Shown: in pieces, positions 34,412-36,451 of the stretch
Numbering within the stretch: the first letter of the stretch is position 1
Layout of the letters: every line of letters starts with the position of its first letter
Source: Bisporella sp. PMI_857
Lineage: Eukaryota > Ascomycota > Leotiomycetes > Helotiales > Helotiaceae
Length of the DNA stretch: 64,000 nucleotides
Assembly (NCBI GenBank): GCA_021307315.1
Contig: JAJSPD010000054.1
Location: forward strand, 248,001 to 312,000
Reading direction: 5' to 3'
Notes under the pieces: model-generated
What the model saw: the letters and a program-made list of their open reading frames with translations, nothing else
The model's database searches: none
Told to the model about the DNA's origin: nothing
Made by a program: the position numbers and the translations under genes

Positions 34412-35579
34412 GACAAGTTTTAGCTACCACCACGATTTCTCTGCACGAGACTCAGGGGTTTTCACCACGGTCCTAGCAGGATCCAGTGCAAAAATTTAGC
34501 TCGATCATCATTGCTAGGGGTGAAACTATGTATATTGTCTGTAAGACAGGCTCAAAGAATACTTGATTAACTTCAGAGGTTTCCTCGGTAATTCTGCATC
34601 GTCTATCACAATGTGTCCCACTCTGCAGGGATCATCACTCTTGTCTTTCTATAGCTAGACGGCGACCTCTCTCTCTCTCTATATATATATATCCATTCCC
34701 TGTTCGTAACTAGCCCAATTTATGCCTTTTCCGCTGAGTTCCAAGTCGGTTCCTCCTCTATGGTAGTACGTCTAAAAGGTCCTAGGGGCCAGCGTCTGAG
34801 AAACCGAATCATCTCACAATTATCAAAGGCCCTCATTTTTTCGCACCGCTATAATTCCAACCATCAATACCACCATCAGACCCACTCTCGCGCCATCAAG
34901 CACTAACTACTCCGCTCTATGAGGCATGGACAAGACCGCGCCAACTCCAGAACATCTAAAAAGAGATACAAGCGTAGGAAGAATGTTGGTAACAGCCGAG
35001 GAATATCAGCAGCACCCGAGGAGAATCTCACGGGAGACCAACACCAGAGAATCCTCAAACATGCAGATAACAAATCGAGAGGGGCTCCATATGCGCGCTG
35101 ATATCAGCTCGCACACAACAAGGGCAATGCCGTAATTCGTCCATGCTAATCACATTCGAGATTTAATCTATATAACATAAGCTTTACAAACGAGTAGGAA
35201 GTACCATCTACTTCATCCTGTCAGGAATCGGCTTACGTAAGTAGGCCAAGGAGCCGGAGAACCTCACACACATTACAGCCGTAATTGTAGAAAATTGAAG
35301 AACTGCAACGCTCCGTATTTGGGCCGTATTCTATTGCTGTGATATCTTCGCAGATCCTCCAATTGATTCTCTTGCTGAGAGATCCACTTTCTGTCACATC
35401 CACTGAGGCAAGCACGTCACGATACTCTTTATACTATCCCAACACAACCAAGCCACATCTCCACAAATTGCTCGCTTCTCGTACCCCTGCCAGGGGTTAA
35501 AAAATTCTGCCACCAATTTTTTTTAATCGCTTTATGTAAAATTATAAGCGTCAGCTTTTTCATCAACAGTAACCTCTCT
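34412..35579. other. Intergenic region
   Basis: 1.2 kb with a CT/AT microsatellite (separate entry). Overlapping ORFs at 34919-35135 show no domain. On the minus strand, 35233-35415 encodes a small Cys-containing stretch flanked by acceptor- and donor-like sites; no start or signal peptide joins to it. Confidence 0.4.
34667..34692. repeat. (CT)7(AT)6 compound microsatellite
   Basis: Seven CT units run directly into six AT units, seen in the sequence. Confidence 0.95.
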
Positions 35580-35702
35580 GCCCGGCTAGCTCAATCGGTA
35601 GAGCGTGAGACTCTTAATCTCAAGGTTGCGGGTTCGGTGAGTAATACTTGTATTTCTCTCACGAGCTGCGAGCTAATAATTAACAGACCCCCGCGTTGGG
35701 CT
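35580..35702 (+). tRNA. tRNA-Lys(CTT) interrupted in the T-loop by a 50-nt intron-like insert
   Basis: The cloverleaf is complete once 35637-35686 is removed. The acceptor stem GCCCGGC pairs with GTTGGGC (two G-T pairs), the D-stem is GCTC/GAGC, and the anticodon stem TGAGA/TCTCA closes a 7-nt loop with CTT anticodon and no intron at 37/38. The variable loop is 5 nt, and T-stem GCGGG pairs with CCCGC around loop TTCGACC. Position 73 is T, as in yeast tRNA-Lys(CUU). The insert falls between G57 and A58, so it cuts the internal B-box promoter (GGTTCGA). A TTTTT run at about 35741 can serve as RNA polymerase III terminator. Confidence 0.88.
35637..35686 (+). other. Spliceosomal-type intron within tRNA-Lys gene
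   Basis: The insert begins GTGAGT, has a CTAAT branch-like motif 14 nt before the 3' end, and ends AACAG; at 50 nt it is the size of the mRNA introns in neighbouring genes. It does not have the position (37/38) or bulge-helix-bulge context of ordinary tRNA introns. Removal by the spliceosome is inferred from these signals. Confidence 0.75.
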
Positions 35703-36451
35703 CAATTCCCTCCGCAGTGAGCAGTTGCTCTCTACCTTCTTTTTGGTTTTGGATTCTTTGTTGAGTTATGGAGAAGTAAGGGAGGTATGCATGCTAACTT
35801 GAGGGAGCCCCGATATTTGAAAGAGATTGCGTTAACTAAGGTTGGTGTTTTCCTACTTTTTGCGCTTCCTGAGACTTGTAGGATCCGCCTGAGTAATCAT
35901 GTACCCAATGAAGGAGAACCAAGAAAGTTGATTGTCTGTTACATATAAGATATATACTCGTATGCAAAAGTGTCAGAAAGATGAAGAAGGGGTATACTTC
36001 ATTGACTGCAGGGGAGAAGTGAGCTGAGATGTCCTCATGTTTCATAGGTCTGAAAAATATATAAGTAATCAGAATGTTCTTTTGTATAAGATAGATTGTT
36101 GAATACATCATGGACTTCCTCCTTATCTGGGAGTTTGTCAGTCATTTCAGCGTCAGAAGACAGTATTCTTGAGTGGATTCCCGTCCATGAGTTTGATTTG
36201 TTTCTGAGACATTTAATCATACTTTTAAGAAACTAGATGTTCATGTCAATTCGTGCATCCAAAGCCAAATTACTAGTATACATACCAATCACAAAAAAGT
36301 TCGTGAATGTCAGCTCTCTTTCCAAACATTCACTACCCCGTCGGTTCCAATCCTTGCTATCAAAAACGAAGAGTCCCCCTAGTGGATATAGTTCTCAAGG
36401 ACGTTTCCTTACGATATTTGAAAGCCTCTCATTACCAATTCTACATGCCTG
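35703..36451. other. Intergenic region
   Basis: 750 bases; contains the TTTTT terminator for the tRNA gene and the promoter of the methyltransferase gene. Small ORFs show no domain. Confidence 0.45.

Follow-up and report, generated by a model that had tools for sequence, protein, structure and literature searches.

Spliceosomal-type introns in tRNA genes of Bisporella sp. PMI_857 suggest that the mRNA splicing machinery also makes some tRNAs of this fungus

Introns of eukaryotic nuclear tRNA genes are taught as sitting at a single position and being cut by a single enzyme. Of the 65 tRNA loci that we collected from the plant-associated fungus Bisporella sp. PMI_857 (a biased sample, from which no rate follows), 13 have GT-AG inserts: eleven genes hold 12 complete introns between them, and two more genes are truncated at contig ends. 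The interrupted genes encode tRNA-Lys(CTT) (three), Lys(TTT), Pro(TGG) (three), Asn, Ser(TGA), Ser(CGA), Met, His (two inserts) and one tRNA with a CAT anticodon. The inserts occupy nine positions across these nine tRNA kinds, none of them at 37/38 (numbering counted by hand), and they are very probably U2-type introns that the spliceosome would remove from nuclear, probably Pol III-transcribed, tRNA precursors. Judged from sequence comparison, this suggests that the mRNA splicing machine also makes some of the tRNAs of this fungus. Somewhat less firmly, we propose that nuclear tRNA genes have probably been invaded by spliceosomal introns at many positions, that at least the supply of tRNA-Pro(TGG) may depend on spliceosome action on Pol III transcripts, with the endonuclease cutting part of these molecules as well, and that these inserts may constitute a third class of tRNA intron beside the endonuclease-cut and the self-splicing ones, a class that would be missed because eukaryotic tRNA finders look for introns in the anticodon loop only.

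The window, i.e. the whole stretch of 64,000 nucleotides analysed (contig JAJSPD010000054.1, positions 248,001 to 312,000), carries a tRNA-Lys(CTT) gene at 35580-35702 of its plus strand, with a 50-nt insert at 35637-35686 between tRNA positions 57 and 58. These coordinates had been proposed by a sequence-only reading of the window and were confirmed, as the spliced sequence matches an uninterrupted paralogue on contig C229 at 73 of 73 positions. Exon 1 (35580..35636, positions 1-57) contains an intact A box and the anticodon CTT and is identical to the copies on C229 and C230; exon 2 (35687..35702) supplies positions 58-73. The B box is cut after G57, in agreement with the earlier reading. 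So, too, are the ends and motif of the intron (35637..35686): a 5′ site GTGAGT, a branch motif GCTAAT whose A lies 10 nt from the 3′ end, and a 3′ site AACAG. The C229 gene (C229:96831-96903), contiguous across the insert site, gives the boundaries independently; a repeated G lets the junction slide by one base, and we chose the placement that gives GT-AG ends. For a random insert of the same composition, the probability of a GTRNGT start, a YAG end and an RCTRAY motif 6-36 nt from the end is ∼3.6e-6. This value, together with a same-site insert at a second Lys-CTT locus (C230), excludes the window insert as a product of chance.

A cloverleaf had been said to appear only once the insert is removed, and standard finders had been expected probably to miss the gene or take it for a pseudogene. 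ARAGORN reported no tRNA in the unspliced window sequence, also none at this locus with introns allowed, and tRNA-Lys(CTT) after splicing. The Rfam tRNA model matched 35580-35639 only (31.5 bits, gathering threshold 29, E 0.013). Upstream of exon 1 lies the leader AACCTCTCT (35571..35579), unchanged in the Lys-CTT loci of C229, C230 and C235 (the window); a longer leader block, GCAACCTCTCT, is present in C229 and C230 only. Exon 2 is followed by a 31-nt trailer (35703..35733) that is identical in the same three loci and includes a possible small hairpin, GAGC-AGTT-GCTC, and then by a T5 run of the Pol III terminator type (35740..35744) that starts 38 nt past the tRNA end. A TATA-like TATAAG at 35543..35548, ∼37 nt upstream of the tRNA, is not diagnostic.

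A count of CTT-tRNA genes in the genome, as proposed by the sequence-only reading, found four loci: C229, C230, C235 and C266. The C229 gene is uninterrupted, and C235 and C230 carry the complete 57/58 insert. At C266 the 57/58 insert starts GTAAGT and the contig ends after 29 nt; this gene has a different leader from the other three and an additional 9-nt insert at 37/38. The intact Lys-CTT genes that the sequence-only reading had named as counting against it, if paired with a lack of spliced RNA from this locus, thus exist to the extent of one, and because of this uninterrupted gene on C229 the window locus alone may not be necessary. ARAGORN also called a Lys(CTT) gene on C57, which was rejected as a further copy, its sequence reading, in our interpretation, as Glu(TTC) with an anticodon-loop intron.

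The 50-nt C230 insert occupies the same site as the window insert and is identical to it at 37 of 50 positions (13 of 50 sites differ). Despite this divergence, the Lys-CTT exons, the last nine leader bases and the 31 trailer bases show no differences; if rates were equal, zero change over these 113 sites would have a probability of 2e-15. The identity of the exons could partly reflect gene conversion, because leader and trailer are identical as well. Outside leader and trailer, the flanks of the Lys-CTT loci are unrelated. Such sharing is unusual, as the other tRNA families compared have unrelated leaders and also unrelated trailers, except for the mutually similar Ala-AGC genes. Within the intron, changes avoid the splice signals, affecting 1 of 15 signal positions, which we picked ourselves, versus 12 of 35 other positions (one-sided p 0.039).

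The other interrupted genes were found in the 55.6-Mb genome (284 contigs). The 65 loci, counted by hand, comprise 49 from the tRNA model RF00005 (63 of 2170 first-look candidates scored), three Lys-CTT genes, and five, six and two further ones from three DNA queries assembled from 27 tRNA genes that we had picked in this genome. Among them are a gene on C194 that is probably mitochondrial and a few atypical ones (C230:974203, C256); families outside the survey include Asp, Phe, Tyr and Pro-AGG as well as several isoacceptors of Leu, Thr and Val. Among the nine genes queried in one of the DNA queries, one (Met) had an interrupted relative. Inserts in 13 of 65 loci rule out the window gene as a lone oddity. 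Scans of viral-contig and genome-contig collections for relatives of the species returned 0 matches. Three of the five matches to a T-loop-intron pattern were rejected, their flanks being by eye unlike those of a tRNA.

Specifically, tRNA-Lys(TTT) on C213, which first appeared as a weak Rfam match, has a 54-nt insert (GTAAGA...CTAAC...TTCCAG) at 9/10, inside the A box, and once spliced is identical to the uninterrupted C232 gene over 74-75 bases. Asn-GTT on C35 is interrupted at 25/26, Ser-TGA on C229 and Ser-CGA on C252 at 30/31, Met on C2 at 15/16, His on C35 at both 19/20 and 64/65, and the CAT-anticodon tRNA on C2 at 61/62; ARAGORN labels the paralogue of the latter Met(CAT), an uncertain identity. 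Paralogues free of a GT-AG insert, i.e. empty sites, are present for Lys-CTT, Lys-TTT, Asn, Ser-TGA, His, Met and the CAT tRNA. Pro-TGG genes on C219, C1 and C210 are interrupted in the variable loop, so that all three loci found carry an insert, of which C210 shows only the first five intron bases before the contig ends; no uninterrupted Pro-TGG gene was present among the RF00005 matches (63 of 2170 candidates scored) or the DNA-query matches. Two interrupted genes stop at contig ends inside the intron (C210:586019 and C266:192022), and at least two such cases among 13 have a chance probability of ∼3e-5, computed after the observation. Perhaps the C210 and C266 introns contain a long repeat or element.

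Canonical 37/38 introns occur in the same genome and differ from the GT-AG inserts in position and sequence signals. Five complete interrupted genes (Asn, both Ser, His and CAT) seemingly retain such an anticodon-loop intron, as does the Lys-CTT gene on C266. The tRNA-His gene at C35:46590-46655 and flanks (L118) thus apparently has three introns: a GT-AG intron in the D loop, an anticodon-loop intron, and a GT-AG intron at the border of T stem and acceptor. The Ser-TGA gene at C229:299547-299776 (L113) has, besides a 90-nt GT-AG intron, an anticodon-loop intron region that is long and repeat-like (AGACTTGA repeats). A separate oddity is C230:974203-974259 (L106), in our reading a tRNA-Gly(TCC)-like gene with a ∼23-nt tandem duplication in the D arm, which ARAGORN labelled Pyl.

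A GT-AG reading is possible for each of the 12 complete introns; ten end in YAG and two, the Pro pair, in AAG, which is a less favoured 3′ splice site. Uninterrupted paralogues set the junctions to within 0-2 bases of sliding (two bases for Asn, one for Lys-CTT and the second His intron, the GT-AG reading being chosen), except for the two Pro introns, where GT-AG was assumed. A CTRAY motif 6-36 nt from the 3′ end, a range taken from an excerpt of PMC5832005, occurs in 11 of 12 introns; shuffling left it in 2.0 on average, and none of 5000 shuffles reached 11. Not all 12 introns are independent, since the two of Lys-CTT are paralogous and so are the two of Pro, and the Pro introns were first spotted through the branch motif; the count without them is nine of ten. 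In the Asn and second His introns the sole CTRAY is 31 nt away from the 3′ end; Ser-CGA shows CTTAAC in place of CTRAY.

Eleven of the 12 introns are 50-56 nt long, and one has 90 nt. The earlier remark that the window insert resembles the mRNA introns around it was borne out in a small sample, the three introns of a P-type ATPase gene in the window (51, 57 and 59 nt; from alignment of the NCBI protein P0121 to the DNA). GCTTAC occurs in two of them and places the branch A at the same distance from the 3′ end (10 nt) that the tRNA insert shows; the third lacks the motif. Only the two Lys-CTT introns passed our similarity cut-off. No clear similarity links the introns of one tRNA family to those of another, so they look like separate gains. 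Descent of the inserts from a single repeat or introner family was likewise ruled out, there being no common sequence between families; for this test, the comparison of tRNA introns with mRNA introns across the genome consisted of one genome search.

Removal of the introns restored a predicted tRNA in all 11 complete genes: ARAGORN reported a tRNA in 11 of 11 spliced sequences, and every spliced gene (n = 11) has seven of seven acceptor pairs, G-T counted. When unspliced, seven of the 11 were missed, and in the other four the intron was placed elsewhere. Three of the spliced calls (Asn, His and CAT) received a wrong anticodon, probably because the anticodon-loop intron remains; these identities rest on exon identity with paralogues, and the label of the CAT paralogue (Met, L037) is uncertain.

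Compensating changes were read from exon alignments to uninterrupted paralogues. In Met, acceptor differences compensate across the intron (AATG/CATT versus ACGT/ACGT), as does one T-stem pair; in His, the changes at pair 7-66 compensate, exon 1 against exon 3; in Ser-CGA, with Ser-TGA as the reference, compensating changes lie in the anticodon stem, which the intron splits. In none of the eight genes aligned to a paralogue does an exon change unpair a stem, and a single G-T was seen (Ser-TGA on C229). Ser-TGA is the doubtful case, with this one acceptor G-T and irregular sequence around its anticodon-loop intron. Since exon differences pair across the introns of Met, His and Ser-CGA, the spliced product seems to be under selection. 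Between the two complete Pro genes the exons are the same and the introns differ. The tRNA-Pro(TGG) product is probably used, because only interrupted genes for it were found. CCA is a common codon in the window (169 of 5950 codons over 11 of the 12 ORFs listed). Pro-AGG might decode CCA via inosine wobble, and for this reason splicing of Pro-TGG may not be essential.

With A and B boxes placed at positions 8-19 and 52-62 (PMC3978253, excerpt), the inserts cut the B box of the Lys-CTT and CAT genes and the A box of Lys-TTT and Met, and a His intron sits at the A-box edge; these genes lack continuous A and B boxes. Such breaks should weaken TFIIIC binding. A run of five or more T residues, as is usual for Pol III genes, starts 3-38 nt downstream of all 11 complete interrupted genes. 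A TATA-like word within 70 nt was no mark of interrupted genes, occurring in seven of 12 of them (several with less than 70 nt of flank available) compared with 28 of 48 tRNA loci. TATA-led transcription is possible, by analogy with the proposal for Cyanidioschyzon merolae.

From this anatomy we infer Pol III transcription, spliceosomal removal and an order of steps. Transcription would run to the T run and give a precursor consisting of leader, exon 1, intron, exon 2 and trailer. The spliceosome would recognize GTGAGT, GCTAAT and AACAG and join the window exon 1 to exon 2, which completes the T loop, and RNase P, RNase Z and CCA addition would then finish tRNA-Lys(CTT). The same route would apply at nine positions in nine tRNA kinds, and genes with an additional 37/38 intron would need the tRNA splicing endonuclease too.

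The sequence-only reading had left two options for the window gene, splicing by the spliceosome or a dead gene, and comparison with the other tRNA loci strongly favours the former. Were the interrupted genes dead or dying copies, with inserts tolerated as other copies supply the tRNA, the uninterrupted Lys-CTT gene on C229 could make the window copy dispensable or silent, and the broken A or B boxes of several genes and the irregular Ser-TGA sequence would fit; we regard such decay as quite unlikely in view of stems left paired in all eight aligned genes, changes that pair across introns in three of the families, Lys-CTT splice signals that were kept while the rest of the intron diverged, and a Pro-TGG tRNA found only in interrupted genes, two of them with the same exons and different introns. 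An assembly or sequencing artefact is barely conceivable: contig ends do coincide with two interrupted genes (C210, C266), a number above chance expectation, but the eleven complete ones are internal to their contigs and have distinct loci and distinct introns, and the Lys-CTT flanks are unrelated outside leader and trailer.

Two further readings concern how, and to what end, the inserts would be removed. Ectopic tRNA introns that the tRNA splicing endonuclease cuts via a bulge-helix-bulge have a precedent in C. merolae, where tRNA introns of 11-69 bp interrupt A and B boxes (PMC3978253, excerpt). This is very improbable here, as introns of that class need no CTRAY branch, yet 11 of 12 have one, and the bulge-helix-bulge-like score at the two introns tested of the 12, those of Lys-CTT, was 7/10, a value equalled by 71-72% of shuffles. 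Alternatively, the transcripts may be spliced and the intron act as a switch that keeps a silent or regulatory pool of tRNA precursors, finished e.g. only when splicing capacity is free, rather than serving mainly to produce decoding tRNA. The insert-free paralogues of seven of the tRNAs are compatible with this, and lichen rDNA spliceosomal introns have been proposed to compete for splicing factors (PMC8527467, excerpt); against it, Pro-TGG was found only in interrupted form. We give the switch a low probability, one that overlaps with that of our preferred explanation through the shared splicing step. The preferred explanation remains the removal of U2-type introns by the spliceosome to yield functional tRNAs.

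Several known systems resemble this arrangement in part. U6 snRNA genes of fission yeast and other fungi yield a Pol III RNA with a spliced mRNA-type intron (PMC10484740, excerpt) and are, like the genes described here, small structured Pol III RNAs interrupted by an mRNA-type intron. Unlike the tRNAs, U6 is itself a spliceosome component, and its intron is thought to stem from reverse splicing near the catalytic nucleotides; in our case, many tRNA kinds and nine positions were hit. Fungal U3 snoRNA genes have GT-AG introns with RCTRAY branch motifs, and intron-bearing and intron-free copies within a genome (PMC5832005, excerpt), which parallels the tRNA loci in both the signals and the coexistence of interrupted and intact copies of a small structured RNA. 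In this genome, neither the five U6 matches listed (47 of 3744 candidates scored), which span the model uninterrupted, nor the two U3 matches listed (24 of 712 scored) have inserts. In ascomycetes (lichen fungi), rDNA contains spliceosomal introns that yeast removes from Pol I transcripts (PMC8527467, excerpt); these also lie in structured RNA outside Pol II genes, but concern rRNA, Pol I and large RNAs. The ectopic introns of archaea and of C. merolae, for which TATA-dependent transcription of genes with interrupted A and B boxes was proposed (PMC3978253, excerpt), likewise cut tRNA genes at many positions, but use a bulge-helix-bulge and the tRNA endonuclease where the present inserts have GT-AG ends and a branch site. 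Introner-like elements share with our inserts the abundance of similar-length introns in one fungal genome, but not the lack of clear sequence similarity among the introns of different tRNA families.

The inserts would be introns of a familiar class in a kind of gene for which we found no report of them in the literature searched. According to a 2017 paper, no small structured RNAs other than U3 and U6 were known to have introns frequently, which leaves out tRNA (PMC5832005, excerpt). The tRNAscan-SE 2.0 paper limits eukaryotic tRNA genes to one intron and assigns removal of tRNA introns to the splicing endonuclease (PMC8450103, excerpt). Among the matches listed from the open-licence literature, titles and abstract openings gave no account of spliceosomal introns in tRNA genes, an absence that proves little, and excerpts of the nucleomorph literature contained nothing on them.

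If the proposal is true, tRNA promoters can survive interruption of the A or B box and intron gain extends beyond mRNA genes. Pol III transcripts lack the mRNA cap, and uncapped transcripts could then be routine spliceosome substrates. The small, structured and sequence-constrained exons of tRNAs would make insertion sites and losses exactly readable. In such genomes, tRNA gene counts by standard finders can err, as ARAGORN did with seven of 11 genes missed and four introns misplaced.

Three Ala-AGC genes (L025-L027), Arg-TCG (L022), Trp (L090), His (L098) and the window Lys-CTT gene have long trailers of 29-48 nt in which a hairpin may form ahead of the T run. Only two of ten long trailers (L022 and L090) were more stable than 95% of shuffles. 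The trailer hairpin of the Ala-AGC genes is kept via paired changes.
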